This document shows, piece by piece, positions 2,660 to 55,523 of a stretch of 64,000 nucleotides of DNA. Both the position numbers and the translations under genes were made by a program. The number at the start of each line of letters is the position of its first letter. Position 1 is the first letter of the stretch. Location of the stretch: the NCBI RefSeq assembly GCF_001189235.2, contig NZ_LFIP02000006.1, positions 186,001 through 250,000 of the forward strand. The letters run 5' to 3'. Under the pieces are notes generated by a model. It was not told the DNA's origin. It saw nothing but the letters and a program-made list of their open reading frames with translations, and ran no database searches. The DNA is from Bradyrhizobium embrapense (GTDB lineage: Bacteria; Pseudomonadota; Alphaproteobacteria; Rhizobiales; Xanthobacteraceae).

Positions 2660-3484
2660 ATGTGACCAGAGGAACGACGGCGTCACATTCGATCGATGTT
2701 GGCAACGTTCGGCACGCTAAGCGTTGATCGGCTGACGGAAGATTTTGGAGTGTCGCTCGAAACGATACGCCGCGATCTCATGGAAACGAAAGAAAGCGGA
2801 GAACTCCGCCGGGTCCGCGGCGGAGTCGTTCCGGTTGCCAAGGACAAGGAGGCTCCCTGCCAATTGCGCACTGCCGTACGTAGTCGCGAGAAAAGAGCGA
2901 TTGCCAGGGCAGCGGCAGCAATGGTCGAGGCCGGTCAGACGATCCTTTCGACGGGGAAGCACGACAACTACCCTGGCCCAACGCTCAGCTCAGATGGAAG
3001 GGCTTATTGTCGTCACCAACTCTCTCAATGCCGCCAAGTGCTTGACTTCCGCGGGTGATTGCACGCAGCGCGGAAACAGGGGTTGATCCTGGGTGGGACA
3101 GACGATCCGCCCGCAACGCTCGGGGCGAATACCGTCAATGAGATAGCTCGCTACCGAGCGGATTTCGCGATGGTCCCTCCGTTCGGTTTTCGATGCGACC
3201 GCTGGTGCGATGAGCTTCATCCCGACGAAATAGAGACAGCGTGAGCGACGTTTGATCATGCGCGCAAGCGCATTATTCTCGCCGACTATTCCAAAGTGGG
3301 TGTCGTTAGCCGGGTTCATATTGCGCGCTTGGTAGACGCAGACTGCGTGATCGTCGACGTCAGGGCCCGTCAGAACGCCATGTTTCCGCAACTGTGCTCA
3401 GTCAATTCGAACGTAGTTGTCGCTTGGGGACTGCGGCGCATCGAGAGGCACGTGCGGCATTTTCTCCATCCCCCACATAACTAG
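2660..3484 (+). pseudogene. DeoR-family transcriptional regulator, degraded
   Basis: All parts of a DeoR/GlpR repressor can be followed, but not in one frame. The helix-turn-helix (LSVDRLTEDFGVSLETIRRD) sits near 2715-2780. The ligand-binding domain continues with QMEGLIVVTNSLNAAKCL in a second frame (from about 2960), then QGLILGG in a third (from about 3080). An in-frame TGA at 3241-3243 separates this from DHARKRIILADYSKVG. At the 5' end, ATG at 2660 follows a good GGGGAG site but its second codon is TGA. Reading on from that TGA gives PEERRRHIRSML, the normal DeoR opening. So there are two stops and at least two frameshifts, and no functional protein is expected. It lies downstream of the IMPase gene on the same strand. 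Confidence 0.8.
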
Positions 3485-3509
3485 ATTCCAAATTTGTAAA
3501 AACTAAGCG

Positions 3510-3840
3510 ACCGCTTGCGGCTCGCGCCATCGTGCCGCCATCGAATTGCTCAGAAGTGAGCGGAGCGCGTGTCCGATGCTGCCTTTGCGATACAGCCGCG
3601 CATCCGGATCGCTCGTGGACACGTGCGCGCGGTTGCTGCGCGATTGTCCGCGGAAGTCGCTGCCGCCCTCGTCATCGCCGTCCTTCTTGAAACTCTTGCC
3701 CGGCCCAAGCCTAGATCAACGTGCGATCCACACTGAAATGTTCGCCGACAACCAGCCCCGGTCAGTGGCGATCTCCACCACTTTGTTGAACAGCGCGATC
3801 ACCGCATCGTGTTCGATCAGTCGCTCGCAGTTCTTGCAAC
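3510..3840 (-). mobile_element. Remnant of an IS5-family transposase gene
   Basis: On the minus strand, pieces of a DDE transposase appear in shifting frames. LIEHDAVIALFNKVVEI is at about 3780-3826, GEHFSVDRTLI ends in TAG near 3715, and DFRGQSRSNRAHVSTSDP followed by DARLYRKG is at about 3580-3665. These match the IS5-type core (DEHFSVDGTLIxAWAS ... THASTTDPDARLYRKG) that I know from the family. At least two frameshifts and one stop disable it. I do not see terminal inverted repeats. It abuts the 3' end of the gibberellin operon and is the only content of the 415-bp gap there. Confidence 0.7.
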
Positions 3841-3899: not shown

Positions 3900-6454
<2,555 letters not shown>

Positions 6455-6718
6455 GCGGATGCTCCTTCTGCAGACGGATGGGCAGACGTCGATCATGTCG
6501 CCGCAAGCTGTCGTATGGGCAGTGCCGGACGACCGCCCTGCTCCGGCGCGCCGACCGCCCCGATGCTGGCGCGGGCCCGCCGCATAGGCTTGCGCACAGC
6601 GCGCAGCGGCAACCTCTGCGATCGGCGCCGGGCACTTCGCACATTAGTGCAGCATGCACGATCCGCGGCCGCCGACCGATCGCACAGCAAAGGAGCGTCT
6701 CCAAGCGGACGGGCACGC

Positions 6719-7726
6719 TCATGCGCATGGCGCGTGCTTGAACAGATACGCGTTGGCCCGCTGCAGGATGTGCGCCAACCGTTCTGCGCGCGGCCCCATC
6801 GGCGCGATGGCTTCCCCGGCATCGCGCAACAGATCCAGCGCGAACTGGCGCGCCGCCTGCAGCCCCATGATCGACGCGCAGGTCGGCTTCTGCGCCGCCG
6901 CGTCCTTACCGGCGGTCTTGCCCAGCGTCGCGGTATCTGCTGTCACGTCGAGAATGTCGTCGATCACCTGCAATGCCAGGCCGAAACAGGCGCTGTAGCG
7001 ATCGAGCGCACAGTACAGCGCAGCGTGCGCGGCATCGTCCGCGATGGCGCATAGCGCGCCCATGCGAACGGATGCGCGCACTAGCGCCCCGCTCTTCATT
7101 CGGTACATCGCCACGATCCTGTCCAGCTCCACGTGCTTTCCAACCAGCGACAGATCGATGGCCTGCCCGCCTGCGGCACCCTCTGCGGACACCGCCAGCG
7201 CCAGTTCGCGCACGAGCGCTATACGGTAATCGCCTGGCGCATCCAGGCTCGCCAGGGTCAGAAAGGCGTGCGCCTGCAGCGCATCGCCGACCAGGATCGC
7301 AATAGCTTCGCCGTACTTGACGTGCACGGTCGGAAGGCCGCGGCGAAGCACATCGTCGTCCATCGCAGGCAGATCGTCGTGGACCAGGGTACAAGCGTGC
7401 ATCATCTCGATGGCAGCGCCGACGTCGTCGAGCATGTGCGCCGGCGTATCGGACAGTGCGCCGGCAGCCAAACAGAGCAAGGCACGGGTACGCTTCCCGC
7501 CATACAAGGTGGCGTAGCGCATCGCCGCCTTCAGCTCGCTCTCACCGTCATGTTCGACGAAGAGAAGGCGCGCCAGCACCTTTTCGACCCGCTTTGCGCC
7601 CTCCTGCATCCAGATCTCGGGCAGCAGCCCGCCGGATGCGCCGCGCGCCGGTCCGCCCAATCCGCCGAGCGAAGAAGCACCAGTCCTGTCGTCCTGTGGC
7701 GTAGTATCGGCCTGCAAGTTGTTCAT
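6719..7726 (-). CDS. ggps: Geranylgeranyl diphosphate synthase of the gibberellin operon
   Basis: Trans-prenyltransferase (polyprenyl synthetase family) supplying GGPP to the two cyclases. The first Asp-rich motif is HDDLPAMDDD and the second is QVIDDILD; YGGKRTRALLCL is the usual substrate-binding stretch. The chosen ATG at 7726 gives MNNLQADTTPQDD, 335 aa. A longer frame upstream adds only low-complexity Arg-rich sequence, so I reject it. A CAGG stands about 10 nt before the ATG. A dedicated GGPS in this operon is expected because the primary metabolism of these bacteria makes mainly FPP and longer chains. It lies 142 bp downstream of cyp117. Confidence 0.92.
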   Translation of the reverse strand: MNNLQADTTPQDDRTGASSLGGLGGPARGASGGLLPEIWMQEGAKRVEKVLARLLFVEHDGESELKAAMRYATLYGGKRTRALLCLAAGALSDTPAHMLDDVGAAIEMMHACTLVHDDLPAMDDDVLRRGLPTVHVKYGEAIAILVGDALQAHAFLTLASLDAPGDYRIALVRELALAVSAEGAAGGQAIDLSLVGKHVELDRIVAMYRMKSGALVRASVRMGALCAIADDAAHAALYCALDRYSACFGLALQVIDDILDVTADTATLGKTAGKDAAAQKPTCASIMGLQAARQFALDLLRDAGEAIAPMGPRAERLAHILQRANAYLFKHAPCA

Positions 7727-7868
7727 ATGCTCGTACCTGACAGGAGGCCGCCACGGCGAGCGGCGGGGCGCCGCGGTGTTGTCGGCGTCGCACCGTGCGC
7801 GCGCCGAGTGCAGCATTGCCGCGCGTCGCCGGCGTCGCTGCCGCGCCACATGCGCATGCGATGCCAGC

Positions 7869-9212
7869 TCATGAGAATCCGATGCGGATAGTCATGGACG
7901 GATGCGCGGTCGGGTAATAGCGCCGGCCTTTTTCGGCGTCGCTCAGCAACCGCGGCCGCACCCCGGCCTCGTGCATGGTCAGCGCCAAGGCGATGCAGAA
8001 CTGCACCAGTTCCAGCCATGCCAGGTGGTAGCCCACACAGACGTGTGGACCGGTACCGAATTGAAGCATGTCCATCGACCCGATCGGCTCGGTGCGTTGC
8101 AGCCACCGCGCCAGCCGAAACTGATCAGGCGCCTCGTGCAACAGCGCCGAGGTCGAGAAATGCAGCAGCGGGACGCACAGATCGGTGCCCGCGGGAATGC
8201 GCCGTTGGCCGAGTTGCAAGTCACGCACTGCGCGACGCACCAGGAGTGGCGTCGCCGGATGCACGCGCAGCGTCTCGCGGAACAGCGCCTCGGCAACCGG
8301 ACACTGCGCCAGATCCGCGTGCCGGGTCGGCACCGCGCCCACGCGTTGCGCCTCCTCGACCAGGGTGTCCCACAGCCCAGGCTGCCGAGCCAGCTCGATC
8401 ACCATCCAGGCCATCGTCGAGGCGGTGGTTTCGTGCCCACCAAGCAGCAGCAAGCGGATATTGGCGACCAGGACGTCATCGGAAAGCGCATTGTCGCTGC
8501 GATCGAAGGCGCTCACCATGTCGTTGATCAAGCCGGTGCGCGAGGCATGTTCACGCGCGGCGCGGACGAACTCGCGCAACCGCGCATCGATCCAGTCGCG
8601 GGCGGCGCGACCGCGCCGCAATGGCAGTCCGGGCAGGTCGACTGGGGGCGCGACGATCAGCCGCAGCAGTTGCCGGTACTTGCGACGCCATCCCGGCAGG
8701 TCCTGCGCGGGGATTCCCATGAGACTGAAGATGAGCTTGAGCATCAGATCGCCGGTTTCGCGCAAGATGATTACGTCGCCGTGGTCGCGCCACCTCTGCA
8801 CGCGCGCCCGGATGACGGGTGCGAACAGCTCGCCGATGCCCGCCTGGGTCAGCCCCTTGGGCAGAAGCGACACCTGGATCGCATCGCGCGCCTGCCGGTG
8901 CGCGATGCCGTCCTGGGCAACCAACGTTCCGCCAAACAATTCGGGCGCGATGTCTTCGATCAGCGCCGAGGACACGTCCTTGTGCCGGAGCAGTGCGAGA
9001 ACGTCCGGATCCAGACTGGTCATCAGATGTCCGGCAGGGCCGAAATCCAGCCAGAAGTGGCTGCCCAGAGTCCGTTCCGCGCGCCGCAGCAGGCACGGCA
9101 GGTCGCAGACGACGGCGGGAAGATGTCCGACCAAGGGGAAAGCACCCGGCACGACGGCGATGTCGTGCCGCAGCCGATGCCGACGGTTCAGCGGGTTGAG
9201 CAGCATGTCCAT
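7869..9212 (-). CDS. cyp117: Cytochrome P450 CYP117 (ent-kaurene oxidase)
   Basis: In the rhizobial pathway this P450 oxidises ent-kaurene at C-19 through to ent-kaurenoic acid. Diagnostic P450 features are all present in 447 aa: I-helix LLLGGHETTAST, K-helix ETLR, and heme-binding FGTGPHVCVGYHLA with the axial thiolate at Cys392. The ATG at 9212 overlaps the SDR stop (TGATG). A longer upstream frame over the SDR gene is a shadow. The N-terminus has no membrane anchor, as usual for bacterial soluble P450s. Electron supply is probably from the operon's ferredoxin. Confidence 0.92.
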   Translation of the reverse strand: MDMLLNPLNRRHRLRHDIAVVPGAFPLVGHLPAVVCDLPCLLRRAERTLGSHFWLDFGPAGHLMTSLDPDVLALLRHKDVSSALIEDIAPELFGGTLVAQDGIAHRQARDAIQVSLLPKGLTQAGIGELFAPVIRARVQRWRDHGDVIILRETGDLMLKLIFSLMGIPAQDLPGWRRKYRQLLRLIVAPPVDLPGLPLRRGRAARDWIDARLREFVRAAREHASRTGLINDMVSAFDRSDNALSDDVLVANIRLLLLGGHETTASTMAWMVIELARQPGLWDTLVEEAQRVGAVPTRHADLAQCPVAEALFRETLRVHPATPLLVRRAVRDLQLGQRRIPAGTDLCVPLLHFSTSALLHEAPDQFRLARWLQRTEPIGSMDMLQFGTGPHVCVGYHLAWLELVQFCIALALTMHEAGVRPRLLSDAEKGRRYYPTAHPSMTIRIGFS

Positions 9213-10057
9213 CAGCAGCCCCGCGACGCGTCCGCTTCGGCGGTCTTGCCGGAAGGACGCGCGGCGCGGCTGTTGCCACCATCGGCGTACGTCGGCACAT
9301 GCGCCATCATGCCGCCGTCGATGCACACGACCTGGCCAGTAATGAACGCAGCATCGTCGGAGAGCAGGAACGCCACCAGCGAGGCCACGTCTTCGGGGCG
9401 GCCGACGCGCGGCAGGAGCTGGTGCCGGCGCAGATGCCATTGCGTGCACTCGTCCAGCTTTGCGAGGAGACGATCGGTCATGATAAGACCCGGCGCAACC
9501 GCGTTGCAGCGGATCTGCGCATGACCGTACTGGGTGGCGAGCGAGGCGGACAGCATGTTCATCGCCGCCTTCGACGCGGCGTAGGACGTCTGTGCGGTGT
9601 CACCGCTGAGCCCCTGGCACGACGACATGTTAACGATCGCGCCACCACCGCGGGCGATCATCCGTGGGATGGCCTGCCGGCAGCAGAGCAACGTACCGCG
9701 CAGATTGGTCGCCATTGTCTGGTCCCAGACCGCCAGGTCCAGGTCAAGGATCGCGCGATCGCGCGGAGTCAGATGCATGGCGCTCGCGTTGTTCACCAGC
9801 AGGTCGACCCCACCGAAGTGCCGCTCCGCCGTTTCGAATAGCGCAGCCACCGCCTGCGCATCGGCGATGTCTGTGGCCGAGGCCAGCGCGCGGTCTGCCT
9901 CGGATGCAATTTGCGCGGTGCTGGCGATAGCCGCCGAGCCATCAATGTCGGCGACCACCACCCTGCCTCCCTCGCGCGCTATAGCGAGGGCGCATGCCTT
10001 GCCGATGCCGGCTCCGGCACCGGTCACCACGGCCACCTTGTCTTCAAACCGTCCCAT
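9212..10057 (-). CDS. sdr: Short-chain dehydrogenase of gibberellin biosynthesis
   Basis: NAD(P)-dependent classical SDR of 281 aa. In bacterial gibberellin synthesis this enzyme takes part in making GA9 together with CYP112 and CYP114, oxidising the ring-contraction aldehyde GA12-aldehyde to GA12. Rossmann motif TGAGAGIG is at 12-19, NNAS at 89-92, Ser145/146, and the catalytic YAASK with Tyr159 and Lys163. The start at 10057 follows AGGAGGGT; the longer frame upstream lies within the ferredoxin gene and is rejected. It overlaps the 3' end of the ferredoxin gene by 14 nt in a different frame, so the two are separate proteins here, not a fusion. Confidence 0.9.
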   Translation of the reverse strand: MGRFEDKVAVVTGAGAGIGKACALAIAREGGRVVVADIDGSAAIASTAQIASEADRALASATDIADAQAVAALFETAERHFGGVDLLVNNASAMHLTPRDRAILDLDLAVWDQTMATNLRGTLLCCRQAIPRMIARGGGAIVNMSSCQGLSGDTAQTSYAASKAAMNMLSASLATQYGHAQIRCNAVAPGLIMTDRLLAKLDECTQWHLRRHQLLPRVGRPEDVASLVAFLLSDDAAFITGQVVCIDGGMMAHVPTYADGGNSRAARPSGKTAEADASRGC

Positions 10058-10352
10058 CGTACCCTCCTGGGTGGCATTGGTCTCTTGCGGCATGCCGCTC
10101 GGCTTCCAGTGTAGTAGGCGGAGGGCCGGCGCTTCCGCGCTCGTCATCGCCAGCGTCGCTTTCGATGACCCGAATGGCGGCGACTGGGCACTGGCTCGCC
10201 GCCAGCCTCACGGCAGCGTGCAGCGCCTGCGGGACCGTCGCCACGCAAACTTCGGCCACGCCGTCCGATTCGCGCTGGCGAAAGGTGCTCGGCAGCGTCA
10301 GCACGCACTGCCCGCTAGTTCCGCACAGATCCTGGTCGACCACGACGCGCAT
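10044..10352 (-). CDS. fd: 3Fe-4S ferredoxin of the gibberellin operon
   Basis: Small 102-aa ferredoxin that probably delivers electrons to the three P450s of the operon. MRVVVDQDLCGTSGQC and the later SQCPVAAI give the C-x5-C ... CP spacing (Cys10, Cys16, Cys55) of the single-cluster 3Fe-4S ferredoxins that accompany bacterial P450s. A fourth Cys36 is present but off-motif. The region after about residue 65 is a hydrophilic tail without obvious homology. The ATG at 10352 lies just inside the gap after the cyp114 stop (10354-10356). It overlaps the SDR start by 14 nt. Confidence 0.88.
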   Translation of the reverse strand: MRVVVDQDLCGTSGQCVLTLPSTFRQRESDGVAEVCVATVPQALHAAVRLAASQCPVAAIRVIESDAGDDERGSAGPPPTTLEAERHAARDQCHPGGYDGTV

Positions 10353-10353
10353 C

Positions 10354-11643
10354 TCAGCTCCCTTGCGCATCCAGCCGCACCGGTAGCGCGCGGAACGTCC
10401 GAAGGAATGCGGAGGGCTCCCGGGTCGGCTGCCCGGCCAATGCCAGCGTGGGGAAGAGGGCCAGGATCCGCGGCAGGCTCTCGGCCAACTGCACCCGGGC
10501 CAGTTGCGCACCAAGGCAGAAATGAATGCCATGGCCGAAGCTCAGCATGATCTTCCCGTCGATCGACATGCCTGGACTGGTGCCGTAGAACCGCGCCGGA
10601 TCGAAGCGATCGGGATCGGCGAAGGCGTCCGGGTCGCGATTGCCGGACGCGATCAGCACGCGCACGTCCGAGTTTTTCGGGATCACCACGCCACCCAGTT
10701 CGATGTCGCGCTGCGCGATACGCGGAATGGAGCTGAACATCGCGGGCGCGTCGCAGCGCAGGACTTCTTCGACGAATGCCTTCACCCCCGCGGCGTCTCG
10801 CTGCAGCCAGTGCCGCTGTTGGGGATGCGCCAGCATCGCCAGGACTGCATGGTCGATGGTCGCAGCAGTGGTGGTGAAGCCGCCCAACAGCATACCCCAC
10901 AACATGCTGATCAACTCCGCATCCGATAGCGTGTCGGCATCATCGTCGTGTGCGCCGACCAGCATCGACACGATGTCGAAGCGGGGATTGGTGCGCTTGC
11001 GCTGGATGAGACCGCCGAAATAGGCCTTCACTCTGGCACTGGCCGCGTCCGCCGCGGCGAGCTGGGGATCGCTGGCGTGTGGGCTGAGGCCTTCCAGAAT
11101 GGCGCCGATGCCGGCGGCGAGCCCGAACATGTCGTCCTGGGGCATGCCAAACAGTTCGGCGAAGACCAGCATGGGCAAGGCCAGCGCGAATTCCCGATGC
11201 AGGTCCATGGCCTCCCCGCGCTCCAGTGCGGGCGCCATGCCGTCGAGGCGCGCAGCGACGATGCGCCCGATGGTCGGCCGCAGGTCGTCGATCTGGCGCA
11301 TGGTGAAATCGCGCGAGATCAGCCGGCGCAGACGCGTGTGCGCCGGTGGGTTCTTCATCGCTAGCGTGGACGCCAGTAGATTGAGCGACAGGCTGGCGGC
11401 TGCACGCGGAAAATAGCGCGCCAGCTCGCCCGGCGCTGGTCCCCGAAACGCATCGCCCGTGGCCTTGAGCGCCCAGAGAATGTCGGCGTGGCGGCTCAAC
11501 AGAAAGAGGCCCGACGCTGAGCGATGCACCGGATCGTGCTCGCGCAACCACCGCATGAACGGATACGGGTCGTGAAGGCACGCTGGCGACGCCAGTTCGG
11601 CGAAGGCGTCCCGACATACTGCCGTGGCTGCTTGCACGTCCAT
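10354..11643 (-). CDS. cyp114: Cytochrome P450 CYP114
   Basis: 429-aa soluble P450. In the bacterial gibberellin pathway CYP114 carries out the oxidative ring contraction from ent-kaurenoic acid via 7-hydroxykaurenoic acid to GA12-aldehyde, working with the ferredoxin and SDR encoded next to it. Heme motif [14 protein letters not shown] with Cys376, K-helix EEVLR, and RFDPARF are visible. The I-helix reads [12 protein letters not shown], where the usual acidic residue before the Thr is missing (GGFTTT instead of GG(H/A)ETT). The stop is followed after 1 nt by the ferredoxin start, so translation is almost certainly coupled. Confidence 0.92.
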
Positions 11644-11731
11644 TTTGGTTACCTATTGGCTGGCTGGTCTGACGGGAGCGCGCGCCGATAAATTGCAGAG
11701 AAGATCGCGATAGCCGGCGGCGTCCCGCGAA

Positions 11732-12934
11732 TCACCAGAGCACCGGAAACGCCTCGAACCCACCAGTGATGATGTCCTTGCGCAACTTCAGTTCTTCGGG
11801 CGCCACGGCCAGGCGCAACGCAGGAAACCGCTGGAAGATCGAACCGAACACCACCTTGAGTTCGAGTCTCGCCAGCGCTGCGCCGATGCAGTGGTGCGGT
11901 CCGTAAGAAAACGCCAGGTGAGGATTTTCGTCGCGCCCGATGTCGAAGGTTTCCGGGGCGTCGAAATGGCGTGCGTCAAACGACGTCGCCGGCAGCCCGA
12001 CCAGCACCTTGCTCTCTGCGGGAATATTTATGCCCGCGATGGTCACATCGGTTTTCGGATAGCGCATGATTCCGTCCCAGCCGGCGCCCGGCGGGTACAT
12101 GCGCAGGATTTCCTCCACCGCCTTGTCTACCAGGGATGGATCGCCGACCAGGCGTTTGCGCTGTTGCGGATGGCGGAACATGGCCAGCAGGCCGAATTCG
12201 ATCTGCGCGACGGTGCTCTCGTGCCCCGCCACCAGCATACCCGCCGCAAGGCCGACCGCCTCTTCCTCGGTCGCCTTGCCCTGGTCGACCGCCGCGAGCA
12301 GATCCGTCAGCAGGTTGTCGCCCGGAGCCTGGCGCTTGTCGCGCATCTTGCCGCGCATGTAGAGGCGCAGTTCTTCCCAGGCCTCGCGCGACGCGCTGCG
12401 CGGTCCGCTTTCATGCTGGTGCGTCATCACTTCGTTGGACAGCTCGGCGAAAAAGGCGTGATCCTCGTAGAGCACGCCCATCAGCGCGCTGATGACCATG
12501 GTCGGAAGCGGAAAGGAGAGATGGCGCCGCAGGTCGGCGGGCTGGGACTGGGCCGCCAGCGTCTCGAACAGCCGCGCGGCAATCGCCTCAACCTGCTGCC
12601 CAAGCAGCTTCACCCGGCCGTCACTGAAGGCCGGCGCCACGATTGTGCGTAACCGGGCATGTTCGCCTCCCTCGTGCGAGACCAGCCACCCCTGCGAACC
12701 GAGAATCACCGTATCCGGGGTGAATGCCGCCGGCGGCATTCCCGCGGGCCGGAACGCCGCGTCCGACAGCGCCGCCTTTGCCTCGTCGTAACCTGTCACC
12801 CACCAGCCTTCGTGTCCGGACGGGAAGCGCACGCGGTGGATCGGACCGTTGGCGCGTAGCGCCAACATCTCCGGCGAAGGCTCGATGTGACTGACTCGCC
12901 ACATCGGTAGCGTCGGCAAGGATTGTTCGGACAT
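11732..12934 (-). CDS. cyp112: Cytochrome P450 CYP112, first gene of the gibberellin operon
   Basis: 400-aa P450 that in this pathway removes C-20 from GA12 to give GA9. Motifs: I-helix MLVAGHESTVAQI, K-helix EEILR, heme FSYGPHHCIGAALA with Cys349. It lies 88 bp upstream of cyp114, the same order as in other rhizobial operons. Upstream (12935-13350, minus strand) I searched for cyp115, which some operons carry to turn GA9 into GA4; no heme motif or other P450 trace was seen. I could not recognise the promoter; no -24/-12 element stands out before the gene. Confidence 0.92.
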   Translation of the reverse strand: MSEQSLPTLPMWRVSHIEPSPEMLALRANGPIHRVRFPSGHEGWWVTGYDEAKAALSDAAFRPAGMPPAAFTPDTVILGSQGWLVSHEGGEHARLRTIVAPAFSDGRVKLLGQQVEAIAARLFETLAAQSQPADLRRHLSFPLPTMVISALMGVLYEDHAFFAELSNEVMTHQHESGPRSASREAWEELRLYMRGKMRDKRQAPGDNLLTDLLAAVDQGKATEEEAVGLAAGMLVAGHESTVAQIEFGLLAMFRHPQQRKRLVGDPSLVDKAVEEILRMYPPGAGWDGIMRYPKTDVTIAGINIPAESKVLVGLPATSFDARHFDAPETFDIGRDENPHLAFSYGPHHCIGAALARLELKVVFGSIFQRFPALRLAVAPEELKLRKDIITGGFEAFPVLW

Positions 12935-49246: not shown

Positions 49247-50539
49247 TTAAGCCTCGAACGGATTCTGTACCAGAATAGTATCTTCACGTTCCGGGCTGGT
49301 GGAAAGCAGGGTGACCGGGCACCCGACCAGCTCCTCGACCCGGCGGACATACTTGATGGCCTGGGCCGGCAGGTCCGCCCAGGACCGCGCATTGGCGGTC
49401 GGTTGCTTCCAGCCCTCGATGATCTCGTAGATCGGCTCGACGCGGGCCTGCGCGCCCTCGCCCGCCGGCAGATGGTCGATTTCCTTGCCGTCGAGCTTGT
49501 AGCCGATGCAGACCTTGATGCTGTCGAAGCCGTCGAGAATATCGAGCTTGGTCAGCGCCAGCCCGGCAATGCCGCAGGTCCGGACGGTCTGCCGCACCAG
49601 CATCGCGTCGAACCAGCCGACCCGGCGCTTGCGCCCGGTGTTGACGCCGAACTCCTTGCCGCGGCGGCCGATTTCCTCGCCGATCTCGTCATGCAGCTCG
49701 GTCGGGAACGGTCCCTGGCCGACGCGGGTGGTGTAGGCCTTGCAGATGCCGAGCACATAACCGACCGTGCCCGGGCCCATGCCGGTCCCGGTCGCAGCCT
49801 GCGCCGCCACCGTGTTGGACGACGTCACATAGGGATAGGTACCGTGGTCGACGTCGAGCAGCGCGCCCTGCGCGCCCTCGAACAGGATGCGCTTGCCCTC
49901 GCGGCGCTTGAGGTCGAGCAGCCGCCACACCGTCTCGGCATAGGGCAGCAGCTTCGGCGCCAGCGCCGTCAGCTCGGCCAGGATGCCCTTGCCGTCGATC
50001 TCCTCCAGATTGAGGCCGCGGCGCAGCACATTGTGGTGCGCCAGCAGCCGTTCGATCTTGTGCGGCAGGGTGTCGAGGTCGGCGAGGTCCATCAGGCGGA
50101 TGGCTCTGCGGCCGACCTTGTCCTCATAGGCCGGCCCGATGCCGCGGCGGGTGGTGCCGATCGAGGTGATGGCGTTGGAGGATTCGCGCAGGGCGTCGAG
50201 CTCGCGATGCAGCGGCAGGATCAGCGTCACATTCTCCGCGATCCGCAGATTGTCCGGTCCGACCGCAACGCCCTGTCCCTTCAGCTTGGCGACCTCGTCG
50301 AGGAAGGCCTGCGGATCGAACACCACGCCGTTGCCGATCACCGCGAGCTTGTTCGGGCGCAGCACGCCGGAGGGCAGCAGCGCCAGCTTGTAGGTCTCGC
50401 CGTTGATCACGAGCGTATGGCCGGCATTGTGGCCGCCCTGGAAGCGCACGACGATGTCGGCCTGTTCCGACAGCCAGTCGACGATCTTGCCCTTCCCCTC
50501 GTCGCCCCATTGGGCGCCGACGACGACAACATTGGCCAT
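49247..50539 (-). CDS. purA: Adenylosuccinate synthetase PurA
   Basis: 430 aa, the normal length. GTP-dependent ligation of IMP and aspartate in AMP synthesis. [20 protein letters not shown] with the P-loop at 12-18, [32 protein letters not shown] and [12 protein letters not shown] are all family blocks. Start ATG 50539 is standard; the frame extends to 50701 without similarity. Confidence 0.97.
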
Positions 50540-50910
50540 TGCGAAGATGTTCCCTTCAGCTGTTTCAGAGACCATGATCGCGGCGAAAACGCGTCCGCCC
50601 ACAGCGACCATGCATGATATGCCCAGCCCAAATCGCGGCGCCCGGCCGCGCGCACGCAAGGCGCCTACCGGATAAAGGAAGCGGGTCGGCTGCGCAAGCA
50701 AGAACGGGGTCGTTTACGCCTTTTAGATTAGCAACAAGCCTTTGATATCCCCTGAAAATTCCATGCCGGGCCGGGCTGCGCCGGCCGGGCAGGAATTTAA
50801 TGTTGGGGTGGCCTTGGGCCGACCATGGGCCGACCTTGGACTGACCTTACGGCCGATTGATCGGCGGGCCCATTGCGGCGATCATTCGGCCATATCAACC
50901 GGCAGGATCC
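50540..50910. other. Divergent promoter region purA / ybaK
   Basis: 371 bp. An imperfect palindrome AAATTCC...GGAATTT at 50756-50798 with a GC-rich centre, and a doubled TGGGCCGACC at about 50816-50835, are the only structures seen. Both genes' promoters must be here. Confidence 0.4.
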
Positions 50911-51393
50911 ATGCCCAGTTCGACACAAGCGACGATGGCGCTGCGCAAGCTCGGCATTGCCTTCAGGCTACACACCTATGTCTACGATTCCAGCGCCGAG
51001 AGCATCGGGCTGCAGGCCGCGGAGGCGCTCGGCGTCGACCCGAACCGGATGCTGAAGACGCTGATGGCGGAGGTCGACGGCAAGCCGGTCTGCGCCGTGG
51101 TGCCGTCCGATTGCGAGCTCAGCATGAAGAAGCTTGCGGCAGCCCTCGGCGGCAAGTCGGCGAAGATGATGCGCCCGGCCGATGCCGAGCGGCTGACCGG
51201 CTACCATGTCGGCGGCATCAGCCCGTTCGGCCAGAAAAAGAAAGTGCCGACCGCGATCGACGAGACCGCGCTCACCCATGTCACCGTGTTCGTCAATGGC
51301 GGCCAGCGCGGCCTGCAGATCGAGATCGATCCGAACGACGCCGCGCTCGCCGCCGGCGCCACGATGAAGGCGCTGGTGGCGACGCAGGACTAG
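50911..51393 (+). CDS. ybaK: Cys-tRNA(Pro)/Cys-tRNA(Cys) deacylase YbaK
   Basis: 160 aa, YbaK/EbsC editing domain. SSAESIGLQAAEALGVDPN, then RMLKTLMAEVDGKPVCAVVP, then GYHVGGISPFGQKKKVPT. The conserved Lys (KTLM) and GGISPFG are the active-site features. It hydrolyses Cys mischarged to tRNA-Pro. ATG 50911 follows AGGATCC; the frame is open 18 codons further up. Confidence 0.9.
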   Translation: MPSSTQATMALRKLGIAFRLHTYVYDSSAESIGLQAAEALGVDPNRMLKTLMAEVDGKPVCAVVPSDCELSMKKLAAALGGKSAKMMRPADAERLTGYHVGGISPFGQKKKVPTAIDETALTHVTVFVNGGQRGLQIEIDPNDAALAAGATMKALVATQD

Positions 51394-51423
51394 GGCCCCT
51401 TCGCTCGATAACGCGTCGCGCGA

Positions 51424-51684
51424 TCAGTGCGAGGGCTTGTTGCGGCCAAACTCCGCGCCGACGTAGTCGGACAGGCCGGACAACTCCTCCGCCGAAATAT
51501 CGTTGACGTTGAGCCTGAGCTGCATGATCGCGAGATCGAGCAGATGTGCGGCGAAGGTCGCGCCGGACGCCGTCACGATGCTGCGCTGCTCGATCAAGAC
51601 CGCGATGACGTCGCGCAGACTGCGCATTTGCACTTGATCCATGGCCCTCTGCCCGATGCCGGCCGTCGTGATGTGTGTTGTCAT
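51424..51684 (-). CDS. Unknown 86-aa protein in the luxI-P450 operon
   Basis: Starts inside the P450 stop (AATGA), so it should be translated by coupling. Sequence features: AMDQVQMRSLRDVIAVLIEQ, then ATFAAHLLDLAIMQLRLNVN, then ISAEELSGLSDYVGAEFGRN. It looks all-helical and soluble, with no signal or Cys. I do not recognise the family. Its fixed place suggests that it works with the P450 or the signal it makes. Confidence 0.7.
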   Translation of the reverse strand: MTTHITTAGIGQRAMDQVQMRSLRDVIAVLIEQRSIVTASGATFAAHLLDLAIMQLRLNVNDISAEELSGLSDYVGAEFGRNKPSH

Positions 51685-53045
51685 TGGGATACCGATTGTA
51701 ATGAGCTGATGGACGCCGCATTGGCGGGTGGAATGTATGGCAGCCGCTCGGCTTCCTCGCCGAGATGCAGGATGCGCGATGGAATCTCGCGGACTTCGAT
51801 GTCGATCGTCATCGGCGGTGGAATCAGCGTCACCGAGGCTTTCGGCCAGGGCGCCGGATTCGGGCTCACGGCGGTGAAGCGATAGGCCGCGGCAATTTCG
51901 AGCGCCAGCAATTGCAGCTCGAGCATCGCAACCCCCATCCCGGCGCAGGCACGCGGGCCGGCGCCGAACGGGATGTAGGCGTCGGTGTTGTAGCGCCGCG
52001 TCATCAGGAAGCGGTCGGGATCGGGGAAATGCCTGGGATCGCGCTGCAATTGCCAGGGACAGATCACCAGCGAGGTGCCGACCTTGAGCTCGCGCCCGCC
52101 GATCGTCACCGGCTGCATCACCTCGCGCGAGAACCACCAGGCGCTGGGATAGAGCCGGCAGACCTCCTTGACGAACGTCGCGCTCAGATTGGCGTGCTTG
52201 ACCGCGTCAAGCCGCAGCTCGCCGTCGTCGCCGATGCACTCCGCCGCCTCGTCGGCAATGTCGTCCATCAGGGCGGGATCGGCGGCCATCTGGTAGAACA
52301 TCCACGCCGCCGTCGATCCCGTGGTGTGGTGGCCGGCCAGCAGCAGTGTCAGGATCTCGTCCTCGAGATCGCGATCGCTGAGGCCAAGCGCCTCGAGGTC
52401 GCGCAGCGCGCTGCTCGAGCCCGCCTTGCGGCGCAGCCGTTGCACCACCGTCGACATCGCAAGCTTGGCGCAGACCCGGTTCTGCCGGCGCCGGTACCAA
52501 GCCACCGGACCGAACGGCAAGGCGCGGAACATCTCCTCGGCGAGATCATCCTCGATCACGCCGACGGCTTGCACCAGCGCTTCCTCGTCGCCGGACGACA
52601 TCACCTGGGAGCCGAAGATCGCGACGCAGATGGTCCGCAACGCCAGCATCGCGGTGACATGGTGCGGATCGAACGAGCCGAGCCGGGCCAGACTGGCGCC
52701 GACCGCGCGGATCTCGGCGCACATATGCGGCAGGAATTTCTCGACGCTGCCCTTGGCCATGTGCTTCTGCAGCACCGTGCGCCGCCGCTTGTGCTCCTCG
52801 CCGCTCAGCATCAGCGAAGAGCGGCCGAGCACCGGCGTCAGCTTCTTGATCAGCTTGCCCTTTCCGATGTCGGTCTCCGGCGCCTTGAGGATCGGGCGCA
52901 GCAGATCGGGATCGTTCACCAGAAACACGGGCGCGGGACCGAGCCGCAGGGGCACGAGCCCCGGTTCGGCCTCGTTGCCGCGCGTCAGCAGCAGACGCAG
53001 CGGGTCACGCTGGAATGCTCGAACGTCCGAGAACATGTGAGGCAT
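51681..53045 (-). CDS. Cytochrome P450 downstream of luxI
   Basis: 454 aa. I-helix LLLAGHHTTGSTAAWM, K-helix KEVCR, PERF-like DPDRF, heme loop FGAGPRACAGMGVAM with Cys367. Within the usual heme loop, Ala replaces the residue before Cys, still acceptable. ATG 53045 follows GGAG at 8 nt and lies 41 bp inside the luxI 3' end. It is not similar enough to the gibberellin P450s to be a copy. No ferredoxin is encoded beside it, so it needs an external redox partner. Likely to modify the acyl-homoserine lactone or a co-regulated metabolite; this is inference from the overlap only. Confidence 0.88.
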   Translation of the reverse strand: MPHMFSDVRAFQRDPLRLLLTRGNEAEPGLVPLRLGPAPVFLVNDPDLLRPILKAPETDIGKGKLIKKLTPVLGRSSLMLSGEEHKRRRTVLQKHMAKGSVEKFLPHMCAEIRAVGASLARLGSFDPHHVTAMLALRTICVAIFGSQVMSSGDEEALVQAVGVIEDDLAEEMFRALPFGPVAWYRRRQNRVCAKLAMSTVVQRLRRKAGSSSALRDLEALGLSDRDLEDEILTLLLAGHHTTGSTAAWMFYQMAADPALMDDIADEAAECIGDDGELRLDAVKHANLSATFVKEVCRLYPSAWWFSREVMQPVTIGGRELKVGTSLVICPWQLQRDPRHFPDPDRFLMTRRYNTDAYIPFGAGPRACAGMGVAMLELQLLALEIAAAYRFTAVSPNPAPWPKASVTLIPPPMTIDIEVREIPSRILHLGEEAERLPYIPPANAASISSLQSVSQ

Positions 53046-53661
53046 CGTGGATCTCCAATTGCCGTCCAAGGTCGAGGAATTTGGTCAGGCCGGGATTGTC
53101 GGAAAGACCAAGCGGGATTTCTCCGGCGAGCGCCGTCAGCGGGCGGCCCATACGATCATTGCCGATCACCTGCGGCGGGCCGTAGCGGCGGGTGCGAATG
53201 TCCATACGGGTGAGAAAGCGCTCGTAGGAAAGGTCGGCGAGCGCCACGAGCGCCGCCGCCCCGCGCAGCTCGGCGAAGCGGAACATCAGCGCGTAGTTCA
53301 CGCGCGCCGTTCGCGACCTCGCGCCGCACGGCAGCACGCCGAAACGGCTGATTTCCCAGGCGTCGCGGCGGCTCGGAAAGCGGCGCACCGCAAGCTGCGG
53401 GAACACCGATTTGGTCAGATAGGGATAGTCGGTGCGGATCGCCCGGAAGCCGCCGACCAGCTCGGCGCCTGAGAACAACAGGCAGTGCTCGGTATACCAG
53501 CAGTCGAACTGATCGCGCTCGACGTCGCCGGTCGTGCTCAGAAGCCAGCCGCAATGGTCGACGAACAGCCGCTTGCGCAGCCGCAACATCGCCCCGACAT
53601 GCGCCGGATCAAGCTCTTCCCTGGTGATGAGTGCATGATATCCGTCCAATGCATTCGGCAT
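53005..53661 (-). CDS. LuxI-family acyl-homoserine-lactone synthase
   Basis: 218 aa. All LuxI invariant residues can be placed: Arg29, Phe33, Trp39 (RKRLFVDHCGW), Asp50, Asp53 (RDQFD), Arg73 (GGFRAI), Glu103 and Arg106 (WEISRFGV). It makes an N-acyl-homoserine lactone from SAM and an acyl donor; the side chain cannot be read from sequence. It does not resemble the BjaI (isovaleryl-HSL) N-terminus as I recall it. ATG 53661 follows GGAGGAAAGGA. It overlaps the P450 gene by 41 bp. Divergent from luxR. Confidence 0.9.
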   Translation of the reverse strand: MPNALDGYHALITREELDPAHVGAMLRLRKRLFVDHCGWLLSTTGDVERDQFDCWYTEHCLLFSGAELVGGFRAIRTDYPYLTKSVFPQLAVRRFPSRRDAWEISRFGVLPCGARSRTARVNYALMFRFAELRGAAALVALADLSYERFLTRMDIRTRRYGPPQVIGNDRMGRPLTALAGEIPLGLSDNPGLTKFLDLGRQLEIHDASHVLGRSSIPA

Positions 53662-53713
53662 TATCCTTTCCTCCAAATGCGGAACATCTGGAACAAAAGG
53701 GGTTAACTGTGGT

Positions 53714-53732
53714 ACCCCCGGAAACCGGGGGT
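53714..53732 (+). promoter_or_regulatory. GC hairpin covering the luxR ribosome site
   Basis: ACCCCCGG-AAA-CCGGGGGT is a perfect 8-bp stem ending 7 nt before the luxR ATG (53740) and followed by TTTTC. The GGGGG of its 3' arm is the only possible Shine-Dalgarno of luxR. It may attenuate transcription or block translation; less likely it is a lux-box-type operator in the luxI/luxR spacer. Confidence 0.5.
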
Positions 53733-53739
53733 TTTCGTC

Positions 53740-54513
53740 ATGGGCCTGGTAGACGCGATTGCAACCATCGAGGCGTCGGATACCATCGACGAGCTCAGCT
53801 CGTCATTGCACCGTGTCATCCAGAACTACGGCTTCTCGGGCTTCGCCTTTGTCGATGCCGGCCGGCCCGACCTTGATCTGCCCTATCATGTCGGCACCTA
53901 TCCCGACGCCTGGAAGCGGGCGTATGTGCAGAACGAATTCGTCCATGCCGACCCGGCGCTGGCACGGTCGCGACGCACCAACACGCCGTTCAGCTGGAGC
54001 AGCCTGAAGCTGCCGGAGCGCAGCGGGCACAAGCGGGCGCCCGAGATGAAGACGATGGATGCCGCCCGCGAGTTCGGCTTCAAGGACGGCTTCGTGGTGC
54101 CGTTCCACTATCGCGACCGGCTCGGCGCCGTGCATTCGAGTTCGACGGTGTTCTTCTGGGAAGACCAGCCGCGCGACTTCGACAAGCTGTTCATCTGCCA
54201 TCGCCATGAACTGCATCTGTTGATGATCTACTGGGTGCAACGGGCGATGGACATCGTCAACCGCGACCAGCGCAACGCGCCGACCATCCTGAAGCCCGCC
54301 GAAGCCGCCGAAACCATCAAGCTCACGGCCCGGGAAAAGGAAGTGATCGCCTGGGCCGCGCGCGGCAAGACCGTGGCCGACACCGCGCAAATCCTCGGTA
54401 TTTCGCCGGAGACCGTCGAAGGCTTCATCAAGCAGGCGCTGCGCAAGCTCGAAGCCTCCAACAAGACGCATGGGGTGGCAAAGAGCATCGCGCTCGGGAT
54501 CATCGACCTGTGA
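53740..54513 (+). CDS. LuxR-family quorum-sensing regulator
   Basis: 257 aa. Autoinducer-binding domain at about 15-165 with the conserved YVQNEFVHADPALARSRR and TPFSW, including the Asp-Pro pair that contacts the lactone ring. The LuxR helix-turn-helix at the C-terminus is LTAREKEVIAWAARGKTVAD then TAQILGISPETVEGFIKQAL. It stands 78 bp from luxI in the opposite direction and most likely senses the product of that synthase, controlling both promoters. Confidence 0.92.
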   Translation: MGLVDAIATIEASDTIDELSSSLHRVIQNYGFSGFAFVDAGRPDLDLPYHVGTYPDAWKRAYVQNEFVHADPALARSRRTNTPFSWSSLKLPERSGHKRAPEMKTMDAAREFGFKDGFVVPFHYRDRLGAVHSSSTVFFWEDQPRDFDKLFICHRHELHLLMIYWVQRAMDIVNRDQRNAPTILKPAEAAETIKLTAREKEVIAWAARGKTVADTAQILGISPETVEGFIKQALRKLEASNKTHGVAKSIALGIIDL

Positions 54514-54931
54514 GCGGCGCCGCGCGACCGTCGCGGCGTTCCGAGGACTGCTTTCGTGCGCGCTGCTTCCCTTTGCAAGATATCGCACCGCCCGCCGGCA
54601 ACGCCGCGAACTGTGGCAAGGTCACACATCCGGGTTGGATTTGCCTCGACGACATCCCCAGATTGCATTCGCGCACGATCTTGATAATAAGGCTGCGGCC
54701 CGATGACAGGGATCTTGGACTGTGGGTGCGTATTGCAGTGCCCGCCCGGTGGACCGCCCGGCCGTCGTGAAAGCGCGGATTGTCGTGGACGCCGCCCGAT
54801 GCGGCGGGACCGATCGTCGATCCGGATGATCCGTAGAAATCCCGTGACGACGAACCGCAGTTCCATTTGCTACCAATCAACGTTGCGGACATGCTGTCGA
54901 CGGACGTAGCTGGAGATCGCCCAAGCGCACC
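54514..54931. other. Intergenic region
   Basis: 418 bp between luxR and the XRE regulator, both on the plus strand. No ORF with protein-like composition and no clear terminator. Nothing recognised. Confidence 0.4.
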
Positions 54932-55318
54932 ATGAGCACATCGCAGGACGACCAGATCGATCAACTGGTGCAGGCGCGCTGGCGCGAAATCGGGCTGTCG
55001 CAGGCAGATCTCGCCGAGATCCTGTGCGCGGGAGCCTCCCTGCAAAAGAACGGCGTGGACGGCACCGTAAAAATCGATACCGGGCGCCTGGCCACCGTCG
55101 CCGAGATGCTCGGGATCGCCGCCGATCTCCTCAATCGCCGGCCCGCCACCACGGCGCTGGCACACGGCGGCCTGGCGTCGGAATCGCTGCAATCCCTGCT
55201 CGAGCTGCGCATGCTGCGGGTGTTCCGCGACGTCAACGACCCCGACACCAAGCGGATCCTGATCGAGCTCGCCGAGCAGATCGTCAAGCGCCAGACCACG
55301 CCGCCGGAAACCCGCTAG
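54932..55318 (+). CDS. XRE-like DNA-binding protein
   Basis: 128 aa. The first half resembles a Cro/C1 helix-turn-helix (RWREIGLSQADLAEILCAGA, then IDTGRLATVAEMLGIAADLL), with an insertion between the helices. The second half is helical (LQSLLELRMLRVFRDVND, IELAEQIVKRQ), a layout common in Bradyrhizobium XRE proteins. Target unknown. Confidence 0.7.
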   Translation: MSTSQDDQIDQLVQARWREIGLSQADLAEILCAGASLQKNGVDGTVKIDTGRLATVAEMLGIAADLLNRRPATTALAHGGLASESLQSLLELRMLRVFRDVNDPDTKRILIELAEQIVKRQTTPPETR

Positions 55319-55523
55319 AGGTTTCCGGCAGATCGGCTGGTACGCCGCCTGGCAAAGCGCCATCGCGCCTTCCGTAAGGGGCCATCGCGCATGGTCGCGA
55401 TGCGTCGATCCCCATTGATAGAACGGCAGAATCCGTGTCTGTGACGGGGCGCCGGGGAGATCCATGCCGGCCCGGCGACGGCCGGGCGGGCGGGCCGCGG
55501 CGTCGTGAACCCGGGCCTTTCGC

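Follow-up and report, generated by a model that had tools for sequence, protein, structure and literature searches.

A cytochrome P450 linked to one LuxI clade in a possible alphaproteobacterial quorum-sensing cassette

In a 64,000-nucleotide stretch of Bradyrhizobium embrapense DNA (the window), a putative N-acyl-homoserine lactone (AHL) synthase gene, luxI, is directly followed by a cytochrome P450 gene. The same order was found in all 52 distinct loci of this LuxI clade and in two outgroups (G1134 and G908), that is, in 54 of 54 loci, one of which has a frameshifted P450 (L038) and one a luxI cut by a contig end. Judging from this conserved order, it is very likely that LuxI and the P450 act in one process, as a preliminary description of the DNA had proposed. 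The most likely reading of the sequences, to which we give about an even chance, is signal tailoring, in which the P450 would give rise to an oxidised AHL. With similar confidence, neither strong nor slight, luxR, luxI, the P450 gene and a small regulatory gene may be regarded as a self-contained, portable quorum-sensing cassette.

Results

Layout and distribution of the cassette

The features of the locus are collected in Table 1. Both gene overlaps reported in the preliminary description were confirmed, namely the 41 bp shared by luxI and the P450 gene (53005-53045) and the 4 bp (ATGA) shared by the P450 stop codon (51683-51681) and the start codon of the 86-aa ORF (51684-51682). luxR is divergent in 51 of the 52 distinct loci, the remaining one being cut by a contig end, and no redox partner gene was found within the cassette.

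Table 1. Features of the luxI-P450 locus (positions in the window)
Feature	Position	Strand	Evidence and remarks
luxR, 257 aa	53740..54513	+	PF03472 and PF00196 matches; points away from luxI
luxI, putative AHL synthase, 218 aa	53005..53661	-	ATG at 53661; PF00765; clade-wide catalytic residues
Cytochrome P450, 454 aa	51681..53045	-	PF00067; C367, E294 and R297 in 52/52; AlphaFold2 model
86-aa helical protein	51424..51684	-	dN/dS; helical hairpin model; ATGA overlap with P450; no Shine-Dalgarno
GGAG, P450 Shine-Dalgarno within luxI	53053..53056	-	Same place in 46/52 loci
Perfect palindrome ACCCCCGG-AAA-CCGGGGGT, luxR/luxI intergenic, candidate LuxR operator	53714..53732		Read by eye
luxI leader hairpin covering luxI Shine-Dalgarno	53665..53700	-	Folding z -3.05
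orf128, PraR-like, 128 aa, degenerate HTH recognition helix	54932..55318	+	HMM link; alignment

The neighborhood of luxI and the P450 gene is thus conserved across related loci, and absence of the P450 from most orthologous luxI loci, named at the outset as an observation that would speak against a joint function, was not seen. Outside the clade, a P450 was beside LuxI at none of 23 loci in the flanks examined, and in the tree a branch with support 99/89 sets the 24 P450-linked LuxIs apart from the rest. In the reverse test, this P450 was found at E ≤1e-40 in 12 of 296 family genomes; luxI adjoins it in 11 of them, and the 12th has an apparent luxI remnant. This P450 was seen without a complete luxI only in G217 and, cut by IS66, on a Methylosinus plasmid. 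G217 has kept luxR and the P450 (open to the contig end), and of its luxI there remains just a weak match to the C-terminal 27 residues (E 0.004). This natural deletion speaks against signal tailoring, as the P450 may serve a purpose in the absence of the synthase. The cassette also occurs outside rhizobia, in Microvirga, Methylocystis and further families of the class; within Bradyrhizobium, B. tropiciagri and B. pachyrhizi are among its carriers. Among the groups listed, no neighboring ORF of at least 120 aa is common to more than 4 of 22 representative loci. Also against tailoring, divergence of LuxI and of the P450 is uncorrelated once LuxR is accounted for (partial r 0.05, n=19). The partial correlations that remain (LuxI-LuxR 0.63, P450-LuxR 0.56; uncorrected for phylogeny) fit a LuxR that follows both enzymes.

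Regulatory DNA and RNA

The exact palindrome of the luxR/luxI intergenic region occurs once in the 8.27-Mb genome, at this operon, and allowing 2 mismatches adds one further site, the same number as for a control pattern. By eye, the palindrome arms vary jointly between lineages; the scan gave a palindrome in all but 5 of 51 loci. The sole exact copy lies at this operon, and the output of the circuit may therefore lie inside it. This agrees with the P450 being a quorum-controlled output enzyme with a separate product, the luxI message merely tying its dose to quorum. We consider this possible, if rather unlikely. The survival of luxR and the P450 after luxI loss in G217 speaks for such a role, as does a coupled luxI in Mesorhizobium, traI2-msi172, whose coupling can serve expression alone according to the available text of PMC5882170; biosynthetic partner genes, on the other hand, were not seen conserved beside the P450, and an output enzyme that adjoins luxI in every clade and outgroup locus, with a complete luxI missing in just the two cases above, would be unusual.

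The luxI leader hairpin has a folding z of -1 or below in 37 of 51 leaders and 12 of 19 cluster representatives. Its covariation is weak, one pair having changed on both sides, and the hairpin is therefore noted merely as an observation. A search of positions 50500-55500 against Rfam gave nothing up to E 1.

Overlap and translation signals

Of the 52 distinct loci, 41 share an overlap between luxI and the P450 gene of exactly 41 bp, down to ~40% identity; it is 62 bp (41+21) in 10 and 44 bp in one. Because the 41-bp overlap recurs in so many distinct loci, its conservation is beyond chance. A P450 Shine-Dalgarno sequence, GGAG, is located inside luxI 7 nt 5′ of the P450 ATG in 46 of the 52 loci, and the other six have GGAC or GGAT at this position. 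For the small gene, no Shine-Dalgarno match of at least 4 bases was found in any of 27 loci. In outgroup G908 the two genes are separated by a 16-bp gap with no overlap, and the P450 has its own GGGAG. It had been claimed that each gene needs the translation of the previous one. This view probably holds for the small gene, which has no Shine-Dalgarno sequence, but not for the P450, whose own GGAG means that dependence on luxI translation is not implied; we expect such dependence to be slight.

It also counts against signal tailoring that a luxI may overlap an unrelated effector gene, in an arrangement that can survive loss of the synthase. In traI2-msi172-msi171 of Mesorhizobium ICEs, as described in the part of PMC5882170 available, luxI likewise runs into the 5′ end of the following gene and a truncated luxI remnant is able to keep the coupling; the 3′ product there is an activator, FseA, rather than an enzyme, and traI2 is given without an identified AHL.

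The LuxI and P450 proteins

The luxI product matches PF00765 with 50.6 bits (cut-off 24). R29 and W39 are found in 51 of the 51 sequences having a letter there, F33 in 48 of 51, and E48, D50, D53, R73, E103 and R106 in all 52; we take these residues (R, F, W, E, D, D, R, E and R) to have the catalytic roles. In acyl-CoA-using BjaI-type synthases, position 9 of the motif (LasI 154) shows no conservation of a positive residue (PMC4234381). This pattern was not found here: the equivalent of LasI R154, counted from an alignment, is R or K in 46 of the 52 clade LuxIs, an ACP motif that bears out the earlier impression of a synthase unlike the BjaI type. The P450 might also act upstream of LuxI and make its acyl precursor (oxidised acyl-ACP or acid), a role with which the kept ACP-type residues agree and for which the linked Mesorhizobium crotonase, thought to prepare a CoA substrate, offers a parallel (PMC10470506). 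We regard it as quite improbable, and neither a carrier nor a ligase gene was seen conserved with the P450.

The P450 matches PF00067 with 178.7 bits, the sole Pfam match in its 454 aa, and the heme Cys (C367) and the ExxR residues (E294/R297) are invariant in the clade. The I-helix has His240-Thr241 in all 52 loci instead of the usual acid-alcohol pair, and Glu in both outgroups. That pair is not defining for all P450s; CYP51 likewise has AGHHT. The AlphaFold2 model has a mean pLDDT of 85.3, and its structural neighbors include CYP175A1 (Z 41.8) and CYP184A1 with oleic acid (Z 39.0). A PDB profile search with the P450 gave 0 sequences at E 1e-50 and 210 at 1e-20.

Oxidation of AHL acyl chains by a P450 is described for CYP102A1 (PMC3355433, in the part available, reporting Chowdhary 2007). 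That enzyme is from Bacillus and fused to its own reductase, a domain absent from the P450 here, and linkage to luxI is not reported in that text. The same source describes lowered bioassay activity of AHLs after oxidation by CYP102A1, and co-expression with luxI would provide automatic negative feedback, so that the P450 could be a built-in brake that oxidises and weakens the AHL to give a pulse or a sharper threshold. A brake acting where and when the AHL is made would be wasteful, however, and its occasional loss would be expected, yet the P450 is present in every locus and frameshifted in one. A brake thus seems unlikely to us.

The small protein and PraR-like genes

The 86-aa ORF is apparently a genuine gene, since dN/dS is 0.20-0.41 in eight pairs of related loci and homologs were identified by tblastn in 27 of the 52 distinct loci, all in one of 20 clusters. 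The expectation that this gene accompanies orthologous luxI loci held for that cluster; elsewhere, most clusters have a small helical-looking ORF 3′ of the P450, in sequence groups that did not all join. These candidates were chosen by eye, and 3 of the 20 clusters yielded none. Pairs above z 4 were 13 of 136 among real pairs and 11 of 1128 among decoys, and by profile comparison the only groups to join were B-C and E-F. A single family of all small ORFs was rejected: in pair tests, 12 of the 17 candidates fell into three groups. The window protein matches that of locus L124 (z 6.8 to 7.9), with no match to L126, L104 or L109 (z 1.4, 1.5 and -0.6). A 57-aa ORF 3′ of the Methylosinus P450 was also rejected, being the P450 C-terminus in another frame. 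The predicted structure of the 86-aa protein is a helical hairpin; Foldseek returned nothing in the PDB below E 0.001 (best 2.3), and Pfam and NCBIfam gave no match at E 0.001 and one Pfam match (E 0.12) at E 10.

A paralog of the 86-aa protein is found elsewhere in the same genome (z 12.8). Among 10 loci, it has a PraR-like gene close by in 4 and none within ~1.5 kb in 5. Of 21 other loci, three have a PraR-like gene no more than ~2 kb from luxI, and one more has such a gene at ~5 kb; the whole 8.27-Mb genome has four, counting orf128. An HMM ties orf128 to canonical Cro/C1 HTH genes that adjoin the cassette in other lineages, and orf128 is a possible partner of the 86-aa protein. By position and nearby PraR-like genes, this protein resembles the CinS antirepressor arm of Rhizobium. 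As far as the source describes it (PMC4149787), cinR-cinI-cinS of Rhizobium leguminosarum also has a small protein gene co-transcribed with luxI, and PraR is a Cro/C1-type HTH regulator like the neighbors of the cassette; here an enzyme gene intervenes, and the likeness is drawn from position and neighbors. A small protein gene in the luxI operon is indicated here by its position and the ATGA overlap, with co-transcription presumed.

Discussion

By analogy, the closest precedent is the R1-I1-crotonase circuit of Mesorhizobium japonicum (PMC10470506), in which luxR-luxI is likewise joined by a third enzyme gene, directly 3′ of luxI in the same direction, the gene 3′ of I1 is required for the unusual AHL, and the trio is found in two further genera. 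Direct linkage of luxR, luxI and an enzyme gene across genera, as in a three-gene AHL circuit with a signal-shaping enzyme, was also observed here. In that circuit the crotonase is 8 bp away, whereas the P450 overlaps luxI by 41 bp; its authors proposed a CoA substrate, whereas LuxI here has ACP-type residues; and it has three genes, whereas a fourth, small gene is present here. In novI-phyH of Novosphingobium and other sphingomonads, an oxygenase gene also adjoins luxI; in the part of PMC3704786 available it is an iron(II) dioxygenase rather than a P450, found at four of five loci, with a hypothesised function.

Under signal tailoring, AHL-bound LuxR would bind the palindrome and switch on the luxI-P450-small gene message, and LuxI would build an AHL from acyl-ACP. 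The P450 made from the shared message would oxidise the acyl chain of the AHL, or its acyl donor, and the signal read by the cassette LuxR would therefore be the oxidised AHL. The 86-aa protein would be made chiefly by ribosomes finishing the P450, through termination-reinitiation at ATGA, and, like CinS, may inform a PraR-type Cro/C1 regulator of the quorum state. Support at the sequence level for such a scheme is the single clade, the set gene order, the kept overlap and catalytic residues, purifying selection in the cluster of the window, and the palindrome with its single exact copy in the genome. We tentatively suggest, as a less probable extension, an alphaproteobacterial quorum-sensing class with a P450-oxidised AHL signal, overlap DNA that serves as LuxI C-terminus, P450 ribosome-binding site and P450 N-terminus, and a PraR-type relay through a P450-dependent small protein. 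The preliminary description knew of no luxI-P450-small-protein system in rhizobia. Our full-text search of open-licence literature found no published luxI-P450 locus either, but the arrangement is not confined to rhizobia.

AHL diversity is usually fixed by the acyl donor that LuxI accepts. Inheritance of the P450 with one LuxI clade, as far as traced, would mean a dedicated oxidative tailoring of the signal, and the recurrence of related units in distant relatives suggests that an oxidised signal may be used by these bacteria. If so, it would amount to a private channel, one that might go unnoticed in standard AHL bioassays and targeted mass spectrometry, and its users would include legume symbionts.

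Conservation and spread of the cassette

The cassette consists of luxI, a cytochrome P450 gene and an 86-aa open reading frame, with luxR diverging from luxI.

Features of the cassette and its surroundings (window positions)
Feature	Position	Strand	Remark
86-aa ORF	51424-51684	minus	no Pfam or NCBIfam match at E 0.001
cytochrome P450 gene	51681-53045	minus	PF00067, 178.7 bits
luxI	53005-53661	minus	PF00765, 50.6 bits (cut-off 24)
hairpin covering the luxI SD	53665-53700		folding z -3.05
perfect palindrome	53714-53732		between luxR and luxI
luxR	53740-54513	plus	PF03472 and PF00196
orf128 (PraR-like protein)	54932-55318		beside luxR; decayed recognition helix

The 41-bp luxI/P450 overlap of the preliminary description was recovered exactly, and the P450 stop overlaps the small gene by 4 bp. 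The genome has a single further PF00765 gene. The window's LuxI is 95-97% identical to LuxI on six named Bradyrhizobium contigs, and dN/dS ranges from 0.06 to 0.41 across all four genes in eight pairs of related loci.

At E <=1e-35 close LuxI relatives occur in 11 of the 296 genomes of the family (next match 5.6e-17); at E 1e-20 they were found in 10 genomes of the order (347 searched) and 29 of the genus (265 searched), the window's own genome being counted each time and the three samples overlapping one another. Thus, the cassette is missing from most genomes and complete wherever it is present. Close relatives also occur in 20 of 21 named loci, those of Microvirga pudoricolor and Methylocystis rosea included, and on a Bradyrhizobium japonicum conjugative plasmid. 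After removal of 17 repeats with identical last 150 LuxI residues, 69 loci gave 52 distinct ones, which form 20 clusters at 75% LuxI identity (27 loci in the window's cluster). Far from being absent from most of these orthologous loci, the P450 gene immediately follows luxI, in the same orientation, in all 52. Its copy in L038, on one Bradyrhizobium viridifuturi contig, is frameshifted after residue ~403, downstream of the heme Cys. Divergent luxR is present in 51 loci, the exception being L119, in which a contig end cuts luxI. Among the 15 largest groups of neighboring ORFs of at least 120 aa, none is common to more than four of 22 representative loci, so the cassette looks like a portable unit.

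The linkage was also examined from outside the clade. No P450 was found in the flanks of 23 other LuxI loci, of which 20 were covered for ~1.5 kb to either side and three for 8-9 kb. A tree of 47 LuxIs has a branch, with support 99/89, that separates the 24 P450-linked proteins from the rest. A reverse search from the P450 at E 1e-40 gave matches in 12 of the 296 family genomes, and luxI adjoins in 11. In the twelfth, a draft assembly (L114, G217:C107), luxR remains together with a P450 still open where the contig ends, and luxI is gone save a weak match (E 0.004) to its last 27 residues, within the overlap; this is an apparent natural luxI deletion. Among 385 class genomes the P450 search at E 1e-50 gave two matches, the window's own and the deeper relative G1134, both with luxI. 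The plasmid search also gave two, one with luxI and one on a Methylosinus sp. C49 plasmid (L136), where the clade P450 is cut by an IS66 element and has no luxI within 8 kb. The next P450 in the window's own genome is 31% identical to that of the cassette. Elsewhere in the window (4904-12934, minus strand) lie terpene-cyclase-like, polyprenyl-synthase-like and SDR-like proteins with three P450-like ORFs (two matched), a block that we take to resemble the rhizobial gibberellin operon.

Overlap, translation and upstream region

The luxI/P450 overlap measures 41 bp in 41 loci; it is 62 bp long in ten others and 44 bp in the last. The same gene order is found in two deeper relatives: in G1134 the two genes overlap by 1 bp (TGATG), and in G908 they are separated by 16 bp containing GGGAG, so the long overlap is a trait of the inner clade. 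The same bases encode the LuxI end, the P450 SD and the P450 N-terminus, which may explain the constant overlap length. Within luxI, GGAG stands 7 nt before the P450 ATG in 46 of the 52 loci; the remaining six have GGAC or GGAT there. The 86-aa gene is preceded by no SD match of at least 4 bases in any of 27 loci, and its junction with the P450 gene is ATGA in 26 of the 27 loci with a recognizable small gene; in the remaining one, L038, the frameshift displaces the P450 stop. These results suggest that P450 translation can probably start independently of luxI, whereas the small gene probably needs ribosomes terminating on the P450. The proposal that each gene requires translation of the previous one is therefore not supported for the P450 and probably stands for the small gene.

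The arms of the palindrome change together between lineages, as judged by eye; the scan found none in 5 of 51 loci and chose a different palindrome in others. It is the sole exact copy in the genome, and the one further site at 2 mismatches is no more than a control pattern gave. Of 51 luxI leaders 37, mostly of one cluster, fold at z <=-1, as do 12 when 19 cluster representatives are considered; hairpin covariation is weak, and luxI start codons are uncertain in some distant loci.

Residues of LuxI and P450

The LuxI catalytic residues are kept in this clade. The clade profile fits 3p2f (presumably TofI) and 1ro5 (LasI) better than 5w8a (which we take to be BjaI) and 6wn0 (4-coumaroyl-HSL synthase). 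Positive residues occupy the equivalents of LasI 150, 154 and 161 in 52, 46 and 52 of the 52 loci. Christensen and colleagues (PMC4234381) describe position 9 (LasI 154) as conserved in clades with a characterized ACP-using member, and the BjaI clade as being without conserved exposed positive residues there; the synthase is thus unlike the BjaI type in this motif, as had been supposed.

The P450 retains the heme Cys and ExxR. I-helix residue 240 is His in all 52 loci and Glu in both outgroups, and possibly reflects altered oxygen activation arising at the base of the clade. Structural neighbors include CYP175A1, CYP184A1 (one with oleic acid), CYP170A1, CYP51, CYP46A1, CYP97C1 and BM3, mostly within a few Z of one another; they suggest a hydrophobic substrate and do not fix its identity.

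The small protein and PraR-like genes

The 86-aa protein is predicted to form a helical hairpin (residues 21-60, block-mean pLDDT 88-95), and homologs occur at 27 of the 52 loci. In shuffle tests it matches L124's small ORF at z 6.8 to 7.9 and has no direct link to the ORFs of L126, L104 and L109, to which the L124 ORF itself links. A paralog in the same genome (z 12.8 to the 86-aa protein) lies ~630 bp from, and divergent to, a canonical PraR-type Cro/C1 HTH gene (L160:4278-4532 and 3254-3649; G000 C8). This neighbor is kept at 4 of 10 paralog loci, one more being cut by the locus end, and is absent within ~1.5 kb at the other five. Canonical PraR-like genes also adjoin the cassette in L111, L109 and L106 and lie ~5 kb from luxI in L123 (4 of 21 scanned), and orf128 was found in all of the 15 scanned Bradyrhizobium loci. 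PraR-like, a label that we assign tentatively from domain order, applies to just four matches across the 8.27 Mb of the genome, orf128 included. In Rhizobium, cinI shares its transcript with the gene for a small protein, CinS, that is described as inactivating PraR (PMC4149787), and these neighbors make a CinS-like role for the small protein a good lead, no more. Speculatively, orf128 may titrate the small protein.

What the P450 may do

The preliminary description held that the genes probably act in one process, possibly yielding a modified signal. The best reading, in which we have about even confidence, is that the cassette would be an AHL circuit with a dedicated oxidizing enzyme, the P450. 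It is favored by the near-exclusive and old luxI-P450 linkage, the lipid-type P450 neighbors, the activity of CYP102A1 on AHLs (PMC3355433), and the Mesorhizobium precedent, in which an unusual AHL needs the gene after I1 (PMC10470506). The gene order holds in G908 without overlap and in G217 with its P450 open. Counting against an oxidizing role on the signal, G217 lost luxI and kept the P450, the traI2-msi172 overlap persists after the synthase decays (PMC5882170), and no LuxI-P450 covariation beyond LuxR was detected. The P450 might form a separate quorum output, which we consider rather unlikely; that it acts as a brake on the signal is improbable, and that it supplies a precursor is still less probable. 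No description of a luxI-P450 locus was found among the matches listed from open-licence PubMed Central full text; one paper supposes that a P450 in a genome modifies AHLs (PMC5479921). If the P450 does oxidize the AHL, the cassette would be a case of luxI with a linked signal-shaping enzyme, an arrangement already known.
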